DNA of 24,876 nt, taken from a virus. A program made the position numbers and the translations under genes. Below are positions 16,745 to 24,508 of this stretch, one piece after another. The stretch is taken from the IMG/VR virus record IMGVR_UViG_3300017770_000151, positions 1 through 24,876 of that record; one strand, written 5' to 3'. The notes below the pieces were generated by a model. It had not been told where the DNA came from, made no database searches, and was given only the letters and a program-made list of their open reading frames with translations. Numbering within the stretch: position 1 is the stretch's first letter; every line of letters begins with the position of its first letter.

Positions 16745-18394
16745 ATGGCAATATCTGCTACAAGTGTTCCAGCAACGAACACATTAAATCAGTTAAGGAC
16801 GCAGTTCAATAACCTCGTAACCGATGTTACAGGTATTGAAGCAGGTACTATTGAATATAACGAATTAAATACTAATAATATTTCTTCAGGTACTTTTAAT
16901 GTAAAAGAAGATGGAGTGATAGTATTTGAGGGTGCTACTAATAATGACTTTGAAACTACCTTAACAGTTGCTGACCCAACAGCAGACAGAACAATTACAT
17001 TTCCTGACGAAACTGGCACTGTATTATTAAGTGGTTCTACAAGTACATTTAGTGGTGCAGCAACAACAGTTGTTTCAAGTGCTAATAACACTGCTAACGA
17101 AAGTGTTTTTGTTACTTTTGTAGATGGTCAAACTGGAAGTCAAGGAATTGAAACAGATTCTAATTTAACATATAATCCTAGCACTAATATTTTAAATGCT
17201 GAGATTCCAGCAGATAATCTTTCTGCAGGTGATGCTGCAATTAACCTAACTACAACATCTGGTAATATAACCATAGATGCTCAAGCGAATGATTCTGATA
17301 TTATAATTAAAGGAACAGATGGTGGTGCTGATACAACATTCTTAACTATCGATGGTTCTGATGCAGGTAAAGCAACATTCAATGGTAATGTTACAGCAGC
17401 ATCTTTTACAGGTAATATAACTGGTGCTGTTACAGGCAATGCTGACACTGCTACAGCACTTGCTACAGCAAGAGCAATCGCAGTCGCTGGGGCAGTTGCT
17501 GGTACTGCTAACTTTGATGGTTCAGCAGGAATTAGTATTTCTACAACACAACAAAATAATTCTGTTACATTAGGAACACATACAGCAGGTGATTATGTAG
17601 CAACGATTACTGGTGGAACAGGTGTAGATTCCACTGCTGCGACTTCTGGAGAAACTACTACTCATACACTATCAGTAGATTTGTCAGAACTTACAACTTC
17701 AACTTCTGACGGAGATGGTGATTTCTTTGCAGTTGTTGATGCTTCAGATGCTCAAAAGAAATTAACAAAAGGCAATATTGCTCTTTCTGGTTTCAATAAC
17801 GACTCTGGATTTACTACAAATGCTGGAACTGTAACAAGTGTAGAATTAACTGCTGGTGCTGGTATTGATGTATCAGGTGGTGCGATTACAGGATCTGGTG
17901 CGATTACAGTAGCAGTAGAAAGTGATTTAAGAAACGATGTATTTCAAATAGGTAGAGATACTAACGATTATTATATTATCAACACAACAACTCATGATTG
18001 GTATCTAGATGGCAACATGGATATGCGTTTAGAGAATGATGGAGATTTACATGTAGATAACGATGTAATTGCTTTCTCAACTACAACTTCTGACGAAAGA
18101 TTAAAGACTGATATTTCTACAGTAGAAAACGCATTAGAAAAAGTTAAAAGTATCAGAGGTGTTGAGTTTACATACAAAAATGATGGTAAGAGAAGTGCTG
18201 GTGTAATAGCACAAGAAGTAGAAAAAGTATTACCACAAGCAGTTAGAGAAAAAGCATTACCACTCCAGATGGGTGTTGAAGATGAAACCGAATATAAAGT
18301 ATTACAATATGACCAATTACATGCCTTATTAATTGAGGCAGTGAAAGAATTGTCTGATGAAATTGAGGAGTTGAGAAGTGGCATTACCAAGTAG
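16745..18394 (+). CDS. Tail fibre with C-terminal S74 autoprocessing chaperone (second of two)
   Basis: The 549-residue product has a different N-terminus from the first fibre, with a short helix (TNTLNQLRTQFNNLVTDV, residues 11-28) and then LTVADPTADRTITFPDETGTV (about 73-93), a unit common in marine fibres. The segment at 157-213 is shared with the first fibre. A second region, ATALATARAIAVAG and ANFDGSAGISI (about 233-265), is another widespread fibre module. The S74 domain begins TSDERLKTDI with the Ser449-Lys454 pair and continues with GVEFTYKNDG, AGVIAQEVEKVLPQAV and a terminal coiled coil. Autocleavage would release 101 residues. The last 17 bases overlap the adhesin gene. The order fibre then adhesin is like gp37-gp38 of T-even phages, so this fibre probably carries the adhesin tip. 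Confidence 0.88.
   Translation: MAISATSVPATNTLNQLRTQFNNLVTDVTGIEAGTIEYNELNTNNISSGTFNVKEDGVIVFEGATNNDFETTLTVADPTADRTITFPDETGTVLLSGSTSTFSGAATTVVSSANNTANESVFVTFVDGQTGSQGIETDSNLTYNPSTNILNAEIPADNLSAGDAAINLTTTSGNITIDAQANDSDIIIKGTDGGADTTFLTIDGSDAGKATFNGNVTAASFTGNITGAVTGNADTATALATARAIAVAGAVAGTANFDGSAGISISTTQQNNSVTLGTHTAGDYVATITGGTGVDSTAATSGETTTHTLSVDLSELTTSTSDGDGDFFAVVDASDAQKKLTKGNIALSGFNNDSGFTTNAGTVTSVELTAGAGIDVSGGAITGSGAITVAVESDLRNDVFQIGRDTNDYYIINTTTHDWYLDGNMDMRLENDGDLHVDNDVIAFSTTTSDERLKTDISTVENALEKVKSIRGVEFTYKNDGKRSAGVIAQEVEKVLPQAVREKALPLQMGVEDETEYKVLQYDQLHALLIEAVKELSDEIEELRSGITK
17315..17360 (+). repeat. 46-base exact repeat, copy 2 (in second tail fibre)
   Basis: This is the partner of 15533-15578. 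It encodes the same TDGGADTTFLTIDGS core in the second fibre. It could be a site of recombination between the two genes. Confidence 0.9.
18089..18394 (+). other. S74 chaperone domain of the second fibre (predicted cleavage fragment)
   Basis: The domain starts at Ser449, with Lys454 five residues later as in the first fibre. It differs in sequence from the first S74 domain except in the catalytic and IAQEVE motifs, so the two fibres are not simple copies. Confidence 0.75.
18365..18370 (+). promoter_or_regulatory. Shine-Dalgarno site that fixes the GTG start of the adhesin
   Basis: GAGGAG lies 7 bases before the GTG at 18378, an ideal distance. It supports this rare start codon over any downstream ATG, and the resulting MALPSS start matches the family. 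Confidence 0.7.
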
Positions 18395-19370
18395 TCCCAA
18401 TAGTTTATCTATAAATCAAATAGCAGGAGAGTTCGGTGGATCTACTCCGCATTCTCTATCAGAATATTATGCTGGTGGTGATAATGTAGCATCTGGAATA
18501 CAAGGTGACAGTGGTGCTATTCCATCATCAGGTGCAATCTCTATCGGTCAATTTTATGGATCGGCAAATAGAATTAGTATTGCTCTAACAATATCTTCCA
18601 ATACAAACAACTATCAAATATCTCAAAACAGAGGTGGAACTTATTCATCAGGTATAACTGACATAGTTCTAACTAACAATGCTCAAGTAGGTTCTAATGC
18701 TGTTGGAACTGCTGCACTTGCTACAGGTGCATCACCCAACTGGGCAACTGGCGACACAATTACTATTGTAAACAATGGTGCATTTAGAGGTCGTGGTGGT
18801 GATGGTGGTGGTGGTATGACTTCTGCAGGTGCATCAGTACAAGCAGGTCAAGCAGCAGGTGATAGTATAGAAATTAATTATCCTGTTACTGTACAAAACA
18901 CTGCTCCAGGTGATATCTATGCTGGAGGTGGAGGAGGTGGTGGTGGTGCCAGAGGTTCATCTGTACAACCTGGACAACCTGGAAATCCAGGAAACCCACC
19001 AAGTGGTGGTAAGAGTCCATCTCCTGGACAACCTGGACAACCTGGAAATCCACCAAGTACACAATTCTTCGGAGGAGGAGGAGGTGGCGGTGGTGCTGGA
19101 TCACAAGCAGGTTCTGGTGGTGCTGGTCGTAATAGTCAAGGACAAGCAGGACAAGCAGGATCAGCAAATTTAACTAGTGGTGGAGCAGGTGGTAACTCTA
19201 CTGGGCAAACAAATCCTAATGGTGGAGCAGGTGGTGGTAATGGTGCTGCTGGAGGACAAGGTACTGGAACAAGTGATGGTGCTGGAGGTGCAGCAGGTAA
19301 AGCAATTGAACCAAACGGAAACCAATTAACATTAAATAATTCTGGGCAAGTCATTGGAGCAACATCTTAA
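18378..19370 (+). CDS. Glycine-rich receptor-binding adhesin, gp38-like in organisation
   Basis: The 330-residue product has a GTG start. Its N-terminus (MALPSS, SLSINQIAGEFGG, GAISIGQFYGSAN; residues 1-56) is the attachment domain of many marine phage tip proteins. The rest alternates glycine-rich stretches (GRGGDGGGG near 137; eight-Gly runs at 183-190 and 232-239; later GGAGGG) with variable segments, the arrangement known from the polyglycine-II adhesin gp38 of T-even phages such as S16. It ends with GKAI, a QLTLNN strand and VIGATS, like gp38-type tips. Residues 197-226 are collagen-like, with six X-Pro-Gly triplets. It probably binds the host surface at the fibre end. It overlaps the second fibre by 17 bases. 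The nucleotide composition of the Gly runs (GGT/GGA rich) produces long open reading frames in other frames that are not genes. Confidence 0.82.
   Translation: MALPSSPNSLSINQIAGEFGGSTPHSLSEYYAGGDNVASGIQGDSGAIPSSGAISIGQFYGSANRISIALTISSNTNNYQISQNRGGTYSSGITDIVLTNNAQVGSNAVGTAALATGASPNWATGDTITIVNNGAFRGRGGDGGGGMTSAGASVQAGQAAGDSIEINYPVTVQNTAPGDIYAGGGGGGGGARGSSVQPGQPGNPGNPPSGGKSPSPGQPGQPGNPPSTQFFGGGGGGGGAGSQAGSGGAGRNSQGQAGQAGSANLTSGGAGGNSTGQTNPNGGAGGGNGAAGGQGTGTSDGAGGAAGKAIEPNGNQLTLNNSGQVIGATS
18966..19055 (+). repeat. Collagen-like X-Pro-Gly segment of the adhesin, with a 21-base direct repeat
   Basis: Residues 197-226 contain QPG, QPG, NPG, SPG, QPG and QPG triplets, interrupted by NPPSGGKSPS. At DNA level a 21-base block encoding PGQPGNP occurs at 18969-18989 and 19032-19052. 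Such repeats can expand or contract by slippage, so they could vary between isolates. Confidence 0.8.
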
Positions 19371-20686
19371 TGGAATTAAGTAGAATTGTAGTTCAGAATA
19401 AAGATATAAAAGAAATCGCATATTATGCTTTGACTAAAGATGATACTCAGATGTTATCTTTGAAGTCAAGAATACATGCTGTTTGGAATAACTTCTTTAT
19501 TAATAGAAGAGGATTTGAACAGTTTATTCAGGAAGCATACATTGATGTTTCTAATCCAAATATTATAACCATCGCATCTTATTATCTAGATGATGATGGA
19601 GAAACTGTTAAAAATATTTTAGACTCTGTTCCAGATACTGTTGCTAGTGGTCTTTCTAGAGCAGAAGCAGATCGAGAATTTCATAATGATACACAAACAA
19701 TAGAGATAGAGTATACCTCTCCAAGTTTGCCATTTAGTATGCCTTCTAATGTTAGTCTTAGAAGAATGACACATGACTTTGATGCAAAGTATGTTGATAA
19801 GAATAAATCAAATGTATATGTTATAGGTGAACTTGCAAATGTAGACTCTTTAGTCAAATCATTAAACAGTAGTTTATCTGCTACTATTCCATCAGGATAT
19901 ACACTTAGTGTAAATGATTCTTTTAAATTAGTTTTTGATAACGATGACAATTTAACTGCATGCACTTTATCTCCCCAAGATTCTTTTCCATATGCTGATG
20001 AGAATATTCCTCTTTCTTTATACCATAATCTATTATTAAATAAAGAACAAATGTTCTGGACATTTAACTTAACAGATGAAACAAGAAAGTTTGAAATCGC
20101 ATATAATTCAGGTTCAGCATATCCTGTAGAACCATTGGGAAAAAATCTATTATTGCTAATGATAACAGAAGAATACGATTCAAGTTTTAATAATACTAAT
20201 GTTCAACATGTATATGTTCAAGGTAGATTACATGATGTATATGCATGGGCAAAGAGTTTAAAGTCAGATATAGATTTGCCAATACCTGACGATTTAGATA
20301 CAACCGATAAAATATTATTTGAAGATGGTTCTGTCTATATGATACAAGAAGGTGAGTTTATGCCGAATGATGATATGGATTATATTTGTTTCGAGACTGG
20401 TGAGAGAATGATAATTCGTGAACATGAATTAACTGAAGATACTGATTACTTTAAATTCTCATTTAACTCTGATGATGAATTAACAAGTGTAGAATTATAT
20501 GGTGGTGTTCAGGTACAACAAGTCAGATCTAAAAAGGTTAGAAGACAATTTAGTATTGAACATACTTTAAGATATTCTGATGGTATTAAAAACTTAGATG
20601 TAACTAAAACACTAGTTTCAGATTCAGCATGTAAAATTGTTCAACCAAAATATGACACAGATGGATTTAGGTACGCAGACGAATAA
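19370..20686 (+). CDS. Protein of unknown function with two copies of a repeated domain (paralogue A)
   Basis: I do not recognise this 438-residue protein from a named family. It contains two copies of one domain. The first, about residues 140-200, has VYVIGELANVDSLVKSLNSS, then SFKLVFDNDDNLTACTL. The second, in the C-terminal half, has VYVQGRLHDVYAWAKSLKSD, then YFKFSFNSDDELTSVELYGG and a basic strand (QVRSKKVRRQ) and an LRYSDGIKNLD segment. The second copy is split by about 45 residues of acidic repeat (ILFEDGSVYMIQEG, ERMIIREHE) that resemble the LEDG repeats of the 1556-residue protein. The same domain occurs in the two proteins downstream. The gene starts on the last base of the adhesin stop (TAATG), which places it in the fibre operon. 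A virion accessory or fibre-assembly role is possible but unproven. Confidence 0.65.
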   Translation: MELSRIVVQNKDIKEIAYYALTKDDTQMLSLKSRIHAVWNNFFINRRGFEQFIQEAYIDVSNPNIITIASYYLDDDGETVKNILDSVPDTVASGLSRAEADREFHNDTQTIEIEYTSPSLPFSMPSNVSLRRMTHDFDAKYVDKNKSNVYVIGELANVDSLVKSLNSSLSATIPSGYTLSVNDSFKLVFDNDDNLTACTLSPQDSFPYADENIPLSLYHNLLLNKEQMFWTFNLTDETRKFEIAYNSGSAYPVEPLGKNLLLLMITEEYDSSFNNTNVQHVYVQGRLHDVYAWAKSLKSDIDLPIPDDLDTTDKILFEDGSVYMIQEGEFMPNDDMDYICFETGERMIIREHELTEDTDYFKFSFNSDDELTSVELYGGVQVQQVRSKKVRRQFSIEHTLRYSDGIKNLDVTKTLVSDSACKIVQPKYDTDGFRYADE

Positions 20687-20689
20687 ATT

Positions 20690-21553
20690 ATGTTCTTACA
20701 TAGAGTATTGATTGAAGACTGTAAAGTCTTAACTAGAGTATGGTGGTTTGATCCAACAAAACTATCTGAAGTAAAATTTGTCAAAAAGATTCACAAACAG
20801 ATAAGTGATGTGTTTCCTGATGAGACATATACTTATCCTGTCAATCACATCTATGGTATGAACCATGATGATAATAATATTATATTTCATATGTGTTCTC
20901 CCTTTGAAGATGAAATGAAAACTTTAGAAAGGAAACACGCACTCAAAGCACAACATCCTATATTGACAGGCAAAGCATACACTCGATACCTTTACAATAT
21001 GGAAACTAAATCAAAAATATTTGAAGTAGTTTATAGAGATATAGAAAACTTTGGATATGAAAACTATCCAGATCCTGTTGTTGATGTTCCATCTACAGTT
21101 CATATTAATACTGTCTCAGAATTTTACGATGAAGATTTTAAATACATATCTCAAAATATATTAATAAATGGATGTGATAATATTAAAGCAGTGTATGACT
21201 TCGCAGATAGTTTGAACAAAGATATTCCTAAACCTATACCTGTAGATAAATGGTTACATAAAGACGATTTATTTAAGTTTGTATTTGATAAGTATGGACA
21301 CTTAATTAGTTTACAATTATGGGCACATGTTGATAGAGTTTCTATTCGTGAGAAAGGTGAATACAGAACAGAGTATAAAGCAGATTATGCAGACTGTATA
21401 AATAATTTAGATGAAACTGAAATAGTAATACCAGAGTATGATGATTATGGTAATTCTATAAAGTCATCAAAACCAAAAGATAATGAACAATATATTTTAT
21501 TTCCTAAAGCAAGGGATAAAGACTATGAAAAAATTAATTACAAAGATTTTTAA
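20690..21553 (+). CDS. Protein of unknown function, first copy of the duplicated cassette (paralogue B)
   Basis: The 287-residue product has no named family that I recognise. Its N-terminus (LHRVLIED at 3-10, WWFDP near 18-22, VKKIHKQISDVFPDETYTY) matches the N-terminus of the protein at 21961-22851. Its C-terminal half carries the same domain as the 438-residue protein: QNILINGCDNIKAVYDFADSLNKDIPKPI, split here as QNILINGC and SLNKDIPKPI, then LFKFVFDKYGHLISLQLW, a basic REKGEYR strand and INNLDETEIVIPEYDDYGN. The protein ends YILFPKARDKDYEKINYKDF, and its last 29 bases overlap the following cupin gene. It begins 4 bases after the upstream stop; no good ribosome site is seen. Lack of a signal peptide or membrane segment suggests a soluble protein. 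Confidence 0.65.
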   Translation: MFLHRVLIEDCKVLTRVWWFDPTKLSEVKFVKKIHKQISDVFPDETYTYPVNHIYGMNHDDNNIIFHMCSPFEDEMKTLERKHALKAQHPILTGKAYTRYLYNMETKSKIFEVVYRDIENFGYENYPDPVVDVPSTVHINTVSEFYDEDFKYISQNILINGCDNIKAVYDFADSLNKDIPKPIPVDKWLHKDDLFKFVFDKYGHLISLQLWAHVDRVSIREKGEYRTEYKADYADCINNLDETEIVIPEYDDYGNSIKSSKPKDNEQYILFPKARDKDYEKINYKDF

Positions 21554-21956
21554 AAACTGTGGCATAGGCACAAGTCATGTAATCAATAAAGATGGTATTA
21601 CCTGTATAAAAAGGTATGGTTTCTGGACTCCCTATCTAACTATCTTTATTTCAAAAATATATCCAATCACACATTTACATAAGATATCGCAGGTGTATCA
21701 TTCACATCAAGGAAGTTTTCTATCCTTTATTTTAAAAGGAGCATATCTACAAGATGTGTTAGAAGTAAATAAAGTATTTCGAACTTCACATAAATGGTTT
21801 AATTATCTTCCTTGTGGATGGCATCATAAAATTACTTGTTATAAACCAGTATATACATTAATGTTTATGGGAAAACGAAAGTGTGAACCAACTGTAAGAT
21901 TAAAAGAAAGTGGTAGGAAATTAAAACATGAAAGATTTTTTACAATAAGCGATTAG
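21525..21956 (+). CDS. Cupin-like protein, first copy
   Basis: The 143-residue product has the layout of a small cupin: GFWTPYLTIFISKIYPI (32-48), YHSHQGSFLSFILKGAY (58-74, with His59 and His61), and GWHHKI (98-103, with His101). Cupins bind one metal with two His from an HxH motif, a Glu and a later His. At the Glu position this copy has Gln76, where its paralogue has Glu85, so metal binding may be altered. The start chosen (ATG at 21525) matches the MKELFSKI start of the paralogue; the reading frame also has an earlier ATG at 21483 that would extend 14 codons inside the upstream gene. It overlaps paralogue B by 29 bases. The substrate is unknown; related sequences are often in the AspB/hydroxylase or dioxygenase-like cupin group. 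Confidence 0.65.
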   Translation: MKKLITKIFKNCGIGTSHVINKDGITCIKRYGFWTPYLTIFISKIYPITHLHKISQVYHSHQGSFLSFILKGAYLQDVLEVNKVFRTSHKWFNYLPCGWHHKITCYKPVYTLMFMGKRKCEPTVRLKESGRKLKHERFFTISD

Positions 21957-21960
21957 AGAT

Positions 21961-22851
21961 ATGATATATTTACATAGAGTGATAGTTGAAGACAACGAAG
22001 CAACTTGGAAGATATACTGGTTTAATCCAGGAATATTGTCACATAGAAAAAAGGTGAAGAAAATACAAGAACAAATATATAAAGTATTTCCAAGTGAGAC
22101 ATATTCTTGGGCAGATCCAGCACACCAATGTTTTGGTTATCATTTAAAAGATAATCTCGTTGTAACTAATGTATGTGGTTCTGATGATTTTAATCTTGAA
22201 AAAAATAAACACTACAAAGAATTAAAAGACCAACATAAAATATTTTATGATAAAGATTTTATCTGTTTCTATTATGATTTAGATAATGCTAAGAAATGGT
22301 CTGAAGTTTATTATAAGACTGACGATAATCCAGAAGTTATTTGTAAAACTAAATTAGATGATGGTTTAGAAATTGCTTGGATGTCAGAATATTACTCAGA
22401 TACATTTGAAAGAATGGGACAAAATCTTTTTATAACAGGTAATACTGAAGATGTATATAAATGGATTGATAAACAAAATAAAGATATTGCTAAACCATTT
22501 ACAAATCTTGTTCATGTAGATAATGGAACTGATGCTATTGATAGGATAAACACAAAGAACGCATTTAAGTGTGAGTATGATAATGAGGGAAATTTAATTA
22601 GACTTAAATTTTTTGGTTGTGTTAAAAGAACTAAAGTTAAAAAGAAAGGTGAATTTTCTCATATTGAGATTACATCAAGTTATTCAAGCAGTATAAATAA
22701 TATAGAACAAATAGAAATTGTCGAATCGAAGTATGATGATAATGGTAATCAAGTACCATCAGATATTATAAAAAGAGTTGATGATTATATTTTCTTTCCT
22801 AAAGCAAGGGAGAATGGTGAGTATGAAAGAGTTATTCTCGAAGATATGTAA
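21961..22851 (+). CDS. Protein of unknown function, second copy of the duplicated cassette (paralogue C)
   Basis: The 296-residue product is a clear paralogue of the protein at 20690-21553. Matching parts are LHRVIVED (4-11) versus LHRVLIED; YWFNP (19-23) versus WWFDP; VFPSETYSW versus VFPDETYTY; QNLFITGNTEDVYKWIDKQNKD versus QNILINGCDNIKAVYDFADSLNKD when read as aligned pieces; EYDNEGNLIRLKFFG versus FDKYGHLISLQLW; KKKGEFSHIE versus REKGEYRTEY; SINNIEQIEIV versus INNLDETEIV; and YIFFPKAREN versus YILFPKARDK. Identity is moderate, so the duplication is not recent. It begins 4 bases after the first cupin gene and overlaps the second cupin gene by 29 bases, exactly as in the first copy. The function is unknown. 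Confidence 0.65.
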   Translation: MIYLHRVIVEDNEATWKIYWFNPGILSHRKKVKKIQEQIYKVFPSETYSWADPAHQCFGYHLKDNLVVTNVCGSDDFNLEKNKHYKELKDQHKIFYDKDFICFYYDLDNAKKWSEVYYKTDDNPEVICKTKLDDGLEIAWMSEYYSDTFERMGQNLFITGNTEDVYKWIDKQNKDIAKPFTNLVHVDNGTDAIDRINTKNAFKCEYDNEGNLIRLKFFGCVKRTKVKKKGEFSHIEITSSYSSSINNIEQIEIVESKYDDNGNQVPSDIIKRVDDYIFFPKARENGEYERVILEDM

Positions 22852-23296
22852 AAAACTTAAAATTGGATTTGGTCCAAATCATGTTGTTGCCAACAATGGT
22901 GTTACAGCATTATCACGATGGGGATTCTGGTCTCCATTCTTCACTATCCTAGTATCAAGAATACATCCTATCGACCATGATAAGATGTTCAACAATACAC
23001 GAAACGATGCTAGAATAATATATCACAGTCACGAAACAAACTTCTTATCATTAATTTTTTGGGGTAAGTATATTGAGGAAAGAAATGTTAATGGTACAAT
23101 TGTTGTCAAAGAAAGAAAGTGGTTTAACTATGTGAAACGAGATACCTTTCATAGAATTAAAGCAAAAGATTATGCTTGGTCTATACAAGCAGGTTTTACT
23201 AGAGATGAAAAGGTGAAAGTAAAAATTAATAATAAAATATATCCACATAGAAGATTGTTTACTATGGGTGGTAGGAGTGATGGAACTTTAGGATGA
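22823..23296 (+). CDS. Cupin-like protein, second copy
   Basis: The 157-residue product is a paralogue of the first cupin. It begins MKELFSKICKKLKIG, against MKKLITKIFKNCGIG. The metal-binding set is complete: His68 and His70 in YHSHETNFLSLIFWG, Glu85 in GKYIEE, and His110 in DTFHRIK. GFWSPFFTILVSRIHPI at 34-50 corresponds to the same part of copy one, and RKWFNY at 98-103 to HKWFNY. A WSIQAG strand near 119-124 completes the core. I chose the ATG at 22823 by alignment with copy one; an upstream in-frame ATG at 22814 adds only MVS. It overlaps the next gene by 4 bases (ATGA). It may be an Fe(II)-dependent enzyme or a sugar- or small-molecule-binding protein; the substrate is unknown. Confidence 0.68.
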   Translation: MKELFSKICKKLKIGFGPNHVVANNGVTALSRWGFWSPFFTILVSRIHPIDHDKMFNNTRNDARIIYHSHETNFLSLIFWGKYIEERNVNGTIVVKERKWFNYVKRDTFHRIKAKDYAWSIQAGFTRDEKVKVKINNKIYPHRRLFTMGGRSDGTLG

Positions 23297-23997
23297 TGAA
23301 AGTATTAAATGATGTAGATAGCACTGATATTGAAAACTATTGGGAAGTAACTAAAAGTGATAGTGAAGTTTTTCCTTACTTGATTGTTGACAATTGGTAT
23401 AACCCAGAAGAACTAGAATCTGTTTGGAAAGAACTAGATTTTTATCAGTCTTGTCCTAGACATAAAATTTCTAGAACAGAAGAAAACAATGCACCTGTTG
23501 CTCGTGAGATAGATGGTACACCAAAGAGTAAAGCATTTAGATTTCATTTGTGGGATTTATACTTAACACAAGAGGGTAGAAACTTCTCAAACATATTGAG
23601 AAATATGTACAAACAAAGATCGCCTGAGTTTTATAAGATTGTTGAAGATGCGTTTCCTATTCACCACCATAGTTACAAAGGTACAAATACTGATGGAACT
23701 ATGATTTCATATTATGAAGATGGTGATTATTATAAACCACATATTGACAGTATGATGTTTACTTGTTTGATATGGGTTTACAGAGAACCAAAACAATTTA
23801 AAGGTGGCGACCTACGATTACCACAAGCAGAAAAAACAATAAAAGTTAAGTCTAATCGAATGTTACTCTTTCCGAGTTATTTTTCACATCAAGTAATACC
23901 TGTAAAATTTGACAAAGAACCAACACAAAGTGGTCTTGGAAGATATTGTATTACACATTTTTATAATTGGGAGTCTAGTAATGTTCAAAGTATATGA
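23293..23997 (+). CDS. 2-oxoglutarate/Fe(II)-dependent oxygenase, prolyl 4-hydroxylase-like
   Basis: The 234-residue product has the full 2OG-Fe(II) oxygenase set: the Fe ligands His150 and Asp152 (in YYKPHIDSMM), distal His199 (in PSYFSHQVIP), and Arg217 (GLGRYCITHFYN), which binds the 2-oxoglutarate carboxylate. The N-terminal helix-rich region (to about residue 75) with FPYLIVDNW at 27-35 fits prolyl 4-hydroxylase-type proteins. Members use O2 and 2-oxoglutarate to hydroxylate or otherwise oxidise a substrate. The start ATGA (23293) overlaps the cupin stop by 4 bases. The ATG doublet (23293 and 23296) leaves the first Met uncertain. The substrate could be a peptide proline, a nucleotide or a small molecule; nothing here decides it. 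Confidence 0.85.
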   Translation: MMKVLNDVDSTDIENYWEVTKSDSEVFPYLIVDNWYNPEELESVWKELDFYQSCPRHKISRTEENNAPVAREIDGTPKSKAFRFHLWDLYLTQEGRNFSNILRNMYKQRSPEFYKIVEDAFPIHHHSYKGTNTDGTMISYYEDGDYYKPHIDSMMFTCLIWVYREPKQFKGGDLRLPQAEKTIKVKSNRMLLFPSYFSHQVIPVKFDKEPTQSGLGRYCITHFYNWESSNVQSI

Positions 23998-24508
23998 TAA
24001 TGTTTTAGATACACAAATGTTAAATTATGTTGACGATTACATTAAAACACTCCCATACTTTCCACATACATCTACTACGATGGATGAGGGTAACTTCTTT
24101 GCCACAAATGATTTAAGAGAAGATGTATTGTTTAATTTTTTAACTAGTGTAATTACAGAGTATAATGACAAACCTTTATTTAAAGAATGTCCACATGTAA
24201 CAAGAGTATATGTTAATGCTCACAATTATGGTAAACACAATGGTGGTCGTTGGCATACTGATGAAGGCGATAATGGTAATGGTTGGTGTAATGCTACAAT
24301 TATCTTTTATCCACAACAATGGCAAGTAGACGATCTTGGTGGTACATTATTTAAGAATGGTGATGAAATAGAAACAGTTGATTATGTAAGAAATAGAATG
24401 GTAGTATTTCCTGCTAATATGCCACACAAGGCACAACATCATCTTAATAAAAAAACAATGAGATACTCAATCGCATATAAAATGAGAGGTAAACTTAATG
24501 ATTGGTAA
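23981..24508 (+). CDS. 2-oxoglutarate/Fe(II)-dependent oxygenase, second type
   Basis: The 175-residue product has Fe ligands His92 and Asp94 (WHTDEGDNG), distal His149 (PANMPHKAQH), and Arg161 (MRYSIAYKM). It is shorter than, and not closely similar to, the preceding oxygenase, so the two may act on different substrates. It resembles the small 2OG-Fe(II) proteins common in T4-like marine phages. The ATG at 23981 lies 17 bases before the end of the upstream gene, giving an overlap. The reading frame is open further upstream, but that part is out of place within the previous gene's conserved end (GRYCITHFYNW). The protein is likely cytosolic. Confidence 0.83.
   Translation: MFKVYDNVLDTQMLNYVDDYIKTLPYFPHTSTTMDEGNFFATNDLREDVLFNFLTSVITEYNDKPLFKECPHVTRVYVNAHNYGKHNGGRWHTDEGDNGNGWCNATIIFYPQQWQVDDLGGTLFKNGDEIETVDYVRNRMVVFPANMPHKAQHHLNKKTMRYSIAYKMRGKLNDW

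Follow-up and report, generated by a model that had tools for sequence, protein, structure and literature searches.

A fixed gene order of tail adhesin, U and an apparently exchangeable cupin in uncultured marine phages

Introduction

Two pairs of genes stand in tandem in a phage genome, each consisting of a gene of no recognised family, here called U, and a cupin gene that begins inside the end of U. Are these pairs copies of one working unit, and if not, what keeps the genes in this order? The DNA concerned, referred to as the window, is the whole stretch analysed: a virus record of 24.9 kb (IMGVR_UViG_3300017770_000151, 24,876 nucleotides). Baseplate and tail-fibre genes lie upstream of the cassette, and the window's gp6 is 50% identical to gp6 of Methylophilales phage Melnitz-3, so the window comes from a T4-like marine phage. 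A preliminary description of this DNA proposed that a two-gene unit had been duplicated and that its two proteins work as a pair. The observation is real and general, and the interpretation was half right.

Genes of the cassette

All features given here are on the + strand. The cassette follows a glycine-rich tail adhesin (18378..19370, 330 aa, GTG start; PHROG tail fiber, E=9e-7) with collagen-like GQPGNP repeats. The last base of the adhesin is the start of U0 (19370..20686, 438 aa), a third and longer U paralogue without a cupin, which was absent from the preliminary description and which BLASTP relates to U1 (E=3e-13) and U2 (E=1e-6). Repeated U segments are apparent in U0, as profile matches in near-identical contigs (profile positions 94-191, 74-170 and 164-242).

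The first pair consists of U1 (20690..21553, 287 aa) and the cupin C1 (21525..21956, 143 aa), which has an HxH...H metal motif and matches PHROG_4786, 'cysteine dioxygenase' (E=9e-6). The second consists of U2 (21961..22851, 296 aa) and the cupin C2 (22823..23296, 157 aa; PHROG_4786, E=1e-8). Both members are paralogous between the pairs, as had been reported: U1 and U2 are 33% identical over 306 columns (E=4e-47), and C1 and C2 are 32% identical (E=2e-27). By their open reading frames, the genes of each pair overlap by exactly 29 nt (21525..21553 and 22823..22851), a stretch that is coding in both frames. The overlaps had been called identical, which is correct for their length but not for their sequence, as 21 of the 29 bases match when compared by eye.

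Directly adjoining the cassette is a 2OG-Fe(II) oxygenase gene (23293..23997; PF13640, E=1e-10), followed by a second (23984..24508; PF13640, E=4e-8). The second ORF also matches PHROG_274, 'DNA endonuclease V' (E=2e-22), yet its Pfam family is 2OG-FeII_Oxy_3, and the PHROG label looks wrong. The two oxygenase genes are about 4 kb downstream of the adhesin, whose collagen-like repeats read GQPGNPGNPP. The 2OG-Fe(II) oxygenase superfamily includes prolyl hydroxylases, and modification of these repeats by such an oxygenase is conceivable. Behind the cassette of a near-identical contig (L001:6333-10785) come a series of oxygenase-like genes, several of which resemble 2OG-Fe(II) oxygenases, and a short-chain dehydrogenase gene (PF13561, E=3e-55).

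Gene order in other viral contigs

We scanned 2.9 million viral contigs independently with a U profile and with a cupin profile. Many of the resulting rows are near-identical contigs, and there are 23 distinct U members at 85% non-redundancy. A cupin lies downstream of U at 79 of 80 loci in the U scan, the exception being a contig that ends 71 nt after U, and in the last cupin scan U lies upstream for all 78 cupins with enough upstream sequence. The two-gene unit therefore exists well beyond the window, and the idea that its genes are mostly apart in other viral contigs is refuted.

The unit also has a fixed third member. Adhesin, U and cupin follow one another in the same order in public viral contigs, and in the 95 rows with a recognisable adhesin, U starts directly behind a glycine-rich adhesin, usually with an overlap of 1 or 4 nt. 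The N-terminal family of the window adhesin precedes U at the loci with enough sequence. Apart from the window lineage and L008/L003, no locus was found to have more than one U or cupin. At L012, L058 and L234, U and the cupin are separated by 1.1 kb, with an oxygenase gene between them.

A further scan, selected by the adhesin, gives counts that rest on 80 of 509 adhesin relatives. In this set, the slot behind the adhesin holds U at 34 loci, and L160 has a true U without a cupin, a structural gene starting 1 nt after U. Where U is missing, the slot holds other small proteins. For example, at L171:6066-6494 a Phage_tail_APC protein (PF16778, E=2.4e-13; PHROG tail fiber assembly, E=4e-12) replaces U behind the same adhesin family. 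Whether the slot is filled goes with the glycine-rich part: the next structural gene comes straight after the adhesin in 10 of 11 same-family adhesins that have no such part, and in 0 of 54 that have one (hand-counted; Fisher 6e-11, with rows that are not independent). In other phages, the slot behind glycine-rich adhesins holds an unnamed family of about 115 aa (FASDTTxSQNPDDY...MWPD; L178:4215-4565, L180:2048-2407, L182:5494-5847 and L208:1459-1800), which is without a PHROG match and is probably another adhesin accessory protein.

Behind the cupin, the commonest first gene elsewhere is a 2OG oxygenase (38 rows), and a separate PF00487 desaturase gene stands there in 18 rows. The identity of this next gene has no link with cupin type (r=0.01) and instead follows the adhesin, i.e., the phage background (r=0.46). 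The desaturase and 2OG context may point to oxidative chemistry, perhaps on lipids, but because the next gene does not follow cupin type, this association is suggestive only.

Against 50,697 phage records, tblastn gave no match for U or for the adhesin N-terminus and one distant match for the cupin. Neither U nor a cupin occurs in the tail region of Melnitz-3, the nearest cultured relative seen, and the first 50 kb of Atu_ph07 showed no U. Bacterial and archaeal genomes gave no cupin and a single contig with U, so this is not a host family at the search sensitivity used. That contig (L134, NZMJ01000077.1) is binned as Maricaulis and has the same tail-fibre, adhesin and U genes; it is probably phage DNA that was placed in a bacterial bin.

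The 29-nt overlap

The gene-pair architecture has indeed been kept, as the preliminary description held, and the 29-nt overlap is an old and conserved arrangement in other viral contigs. Counted from the final base of U, position -28 is the exact site of a cupin-frame start codon in 82 of the 120 U rows (a redundant set) and in 15 of the 23 members at 85% non-redundancy, which is more than chance. Members outside this class vary: L015 and L022 have a 1-nt overlap and have lost the U tail, L026, L032, L040 and L059 have no overlap, L012 has its cupin at a distance and L111 has no ATG at the 29-nt position. Other in-frame upstream starts exist (a 71-nt overlap is possible in both window copies, and 35 or 38 nt in C2), so the figure of 29 nt rests on the conserved ATG and the Shine-Dalgarno-like stretch before it.

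All 15 members of the 29-nt class have that stretch, and in each it ranks among the top 0-12% of the 22-mers of U. Immediately ahead of the ATG, the codons read DGSGG in most members and PKARD/E in the window. In U1 the stretch is GCAAGGGAT (21508..21516), within the PKARD codons (duplex dG -5.1, best 10% of background), and in U2 it is GCAAGGGAG (22804..22812), within the PKARE codons (duplex dG -9.4, best 1% of background). Synonymous change drops by half within the overlap, from 0.69 upstream to 0.36, in relatives that do not belong to the window lineage. The conserved ending of U thus doubles, at least in part, as a ribosome-binding site and as coding sequence in a second frame. The preliminary description thought that the two proteins were perhaps made in a fixed ratio; an embedded ribosome-binding site would argue for separate initiation of the cupin as much as for its coupling to U.

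History of the two pairs

A tandem duplication of a two-gene unit should leave both genes of one pair closest to those of the other. This is what we found for U and not for the cupin. In the U tree, U1, U2 and their L008/L003 relatives group together (100/99), and the alignment has insertions common to these genes. In the cupin tree, C2 and its L003 homologue fall within a clade of other phages' cupins (support 100/99.8), C2 being 72-73% identical to the L117/L129 cupins, and C1 falls elsewhere. The AU test rejects a single C1+C2 clade (p-AU 0.0004), a grouping of U2 with the U genes of C2-type phages (p-AU 2e-6) and a single clade of those U genes (p-AU 7e-4). The proposed duplication thus survives for the sister genes U1 and U2, while separate sources, which the preliminary description had named as the opposite outcome, hold true for the cupins.

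The same can be seen between phages. L026 and L113 are 93% identical in U and 84-90% in the adhesin, and their cupins are 30% identical (35% over aligned residues), with DNA identity breaking at the U tail. Over 30 loci, Mantel tests correlate U divergence with adhesin divergence (r=0.56, p=5e-4; r=0.58 with the cupin partialled out), but not cupin divergence with adhesin divergence (r=0.001, p=0.46), and U and cupin are weakly correlated (r=0.24, p=0.001). U tracks the adhesin's N-terminal half as well as its glycine-rich part, and some of the U-adhesin correlation may therefore reflect common descent of the phages. Of the two genes, only U changes in step with the adhesin; the cupin is thus a passenger open to exchange, not a co-evolving partner. 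The two window pairs are not a simple duplication, and the cupin behaves as an exchangeable gene behind a partner that is bound to the adhesin. The overlap is also the exchange point of the downstream gene, and it could serve as a homology anchor for cupin exchange.

A candidate assembly factor for the adhesin

What, then, might U do for the adhesin? In cyanophage Pam3, the glycine-rich fibre gp24 needs the chaperone gp25, with which it forms a 3:3 complex, and gp25 is absent from the virion (PMC9608196). U lies immediately downstream of a glycine-rich adhesin and co-evolves with it. From this position and covariation, the chaperone that occupies the slot in a relative, the dependence of the slot on the glycine-rich part and the Pam3 precedent, we infer that the adhesin is assembled with the help of U. 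We lean, with modest confidence, towards the view that tail adhesin and U form a conserved unit, with U as the adhesin's dedicated assembly factor and the cupin as an exchangeable third gene.

In such a system, U would be an intermolecular chaperone for the glycine-rich adhesin, doing the job of Tfa/gp38-type chaperones, and would be made directly after the adhesin from its start overlapping by 1-4 nt. The cupin, with its three-histidine metal site, would be translated from the ribosome-binding site in the last codons of U. Cupins differ from phage to phage behind an almost unchanged U, with the exchange point at the U tail or the overlap. In the window phage, U is triplicated, and the cupins behind two of its copies have separate origins. 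The additional pairs probably serve as diverged spares, whether for another form of the adhesin or for another cupin activity.

Some features of U fit a chaperone less well. It has no significant match to Pfam, PHROG or PDB sequences, and against Tfa, gp38 and gp25 it has neither a sequence nor a fold match, with no Tfa among the PDB fold matches listed. Of its 17 invariant columns, which include R5, C65, Y92, K99, E102, Y105, E212, N223 and E228, many are polar, a pattern closer to that of an active site than to the surface of a chaperone. Its best PDB fold matches, albeit weak ones, are with prenyltransferases.

The cupin and alternative explanations

The predicted C2 model (pLDDT 78) is a cupin beta-barrel, with 145 PDB matches at E<=0.001 that are cupins throughout those listed. 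All 33 cupins tested match PHROG_4786, 'cysteine dioxygenase' (best E=3e-13), and H68, H70 and H110 (C2 numbering), i.e., an HxH motif and a distal histidine, are invariant in them. The cupin is therefore presumably an active metal enzyme. At L008:5477-6387, a start with the 29-nt overlap is followed by a fatty-acid desaturase-like domain and then the cupin, all in one in-frame fusion. L003:1-476 starts partway through this fusion (98.8% over 172 nt), and the two contigs come from different samples. Given this fusion, host-side chemistry, on envelope or lipid, is the most likely role of the cupin.

It follows that the cupin and its neighbours (2OG oxygenases, desaturase and SDR) might alter the host envelope or lipids during infection, e.g., against superinfection, and that the adhesin adjoins them since receptor binding and receptor change co-evolve. 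The fusion in L008/L003, the PF00487 desaturase genes behind the cupin and the independence of cupin identity from the adhesin favour this explanation. However, a cupin matched to the receptor should covary with the adhesin, and none of this is seen, so we consider the full proposal possible but on balance unlikely. It concerns only the cupin and is compatible with U being an assembly factor.

The fold matches of the U model suggest another explanation. The U model has a pLDDT of 91, and its better fold matches, ahead of those in the PDB, are uncharacterised viral (phage) proteins. The top seven PDB matches are all ABBA/PT-barrel enzymes (AmbP1, AnaPT, DciF and PatF). U could thus be a PT-barrel (ABBA prenyltransferase-like) enzyme that modifies the adhesin, with the cupin, 2OG oxygenases and desaturase as tail-tip tailoring enzymes. 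The invariant polar residues of U, the oxidative genes that follow and the tracking of the adhesin by U would all suit such an enzyme. We nevertheless think this quite improbable, as the fold matches are weak (E 0.014-0.1, TM 0.33-0.39, rmsd 8-9 A), U has no sequence match to known ABBA prenyltransferase families and the cupin does not track the adhesin. The specific version, where U chemically modifies (e.g., prenylates) the glycine-rich adhesin and the adhesin-U-cupin-oxygenase run is a tail-tip maturation cluster with exchangeable oxidative enzymes, is very doubtful. A cyanophage ACG-2014e protein considered as a fold neighbour (Syn7803C2_39, in a 2OG oxygenase cluster) was rejected: it had been placed by its 284-aa length alone, and profile comparison gave nothing.

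U might instead be a structural part of the fibre, such as an adhesin collar or cap that stays in the virion, with the cupin as a small decoration. Its position among tail genes and its covariation with the adhesin are what one would expect of a fibre part. The conserved metal motif of the cupin is not, and neither is the absence of the cupin at some loci or the chaperone in place of U at another, so we give this explanation little credence.

Finally, the matched two-protein machine (a complex, or an enzyme with its partner, duplicated as a unit) that the preliminary description favoured has become very unlikely, for although U and cupin are linked almost perfectly, keep their overlap across divergent members and are weakly correlated, C1 and C2 have separate origins, cupins only 30-35% identical are swapped behind near-identical U without tracking the adhesin, L160 has U without a cupin and U and cupin lie 1.1 kb apart at three loci.

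Significance

This analysis identifies adhesin-U-cupin as a fixed order of genes in T4-like and other uncultured marine phages and gives U, which no Pfam, PHROG or PDB family explains, a testable role. We found no description of the unit in the open-access literature searched. The analysis also shows a site of gene exchange in the conserved 29-nt overlap, at which phages replace the downstream gene and keep the upstream one matched to their tail tip. If U is an adhesin chaperone, producing the two together could allow such adhesins to be prepared and studied in the laboratory. If U is an enzyme, it would carry out a post-translational modification of the tail tip, of a kind not described in the literature searched.

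Comparison with known systems

The PHROG_4786 cupins have the same conserved HxH...H as the window-type cupins; the name 'cysteine dioxygenase' is a PHROG label inherited from remote homology. One cultured phage, Milchi, has a cupin match, beside which no adhesin or U is annotated or detected. The ABBA/PT-barrel prenyltransferases AmbP1, AnaPT, PatF and DciF, which supply the top seven PDB fold matches, resemble the U model weakly and have no sequence similarity to U.

From sequence, the window adhesin resembles the adhesins S16/T2 gp38 and Pam3 gp24 in its glycine-rich distal part at the tail tip, but its N-terminal family was not detected in the cultured-phage collection. Among chaperones, Tfa, T4 gp38, Mu Tfa, Pam3 gp25 and Phage_tail_APC have no detected sequence or fold relation to U. 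However, like U, each is encoded directly behind a fibre or adhesin gene. In Pam3, gp25 serves a glycine-rich fibre, and U sits behind a glycine-rich adhesin. At 162 aa, gp25 is shorter than U, which has about 250-300 aa and a cupin gene downstream.
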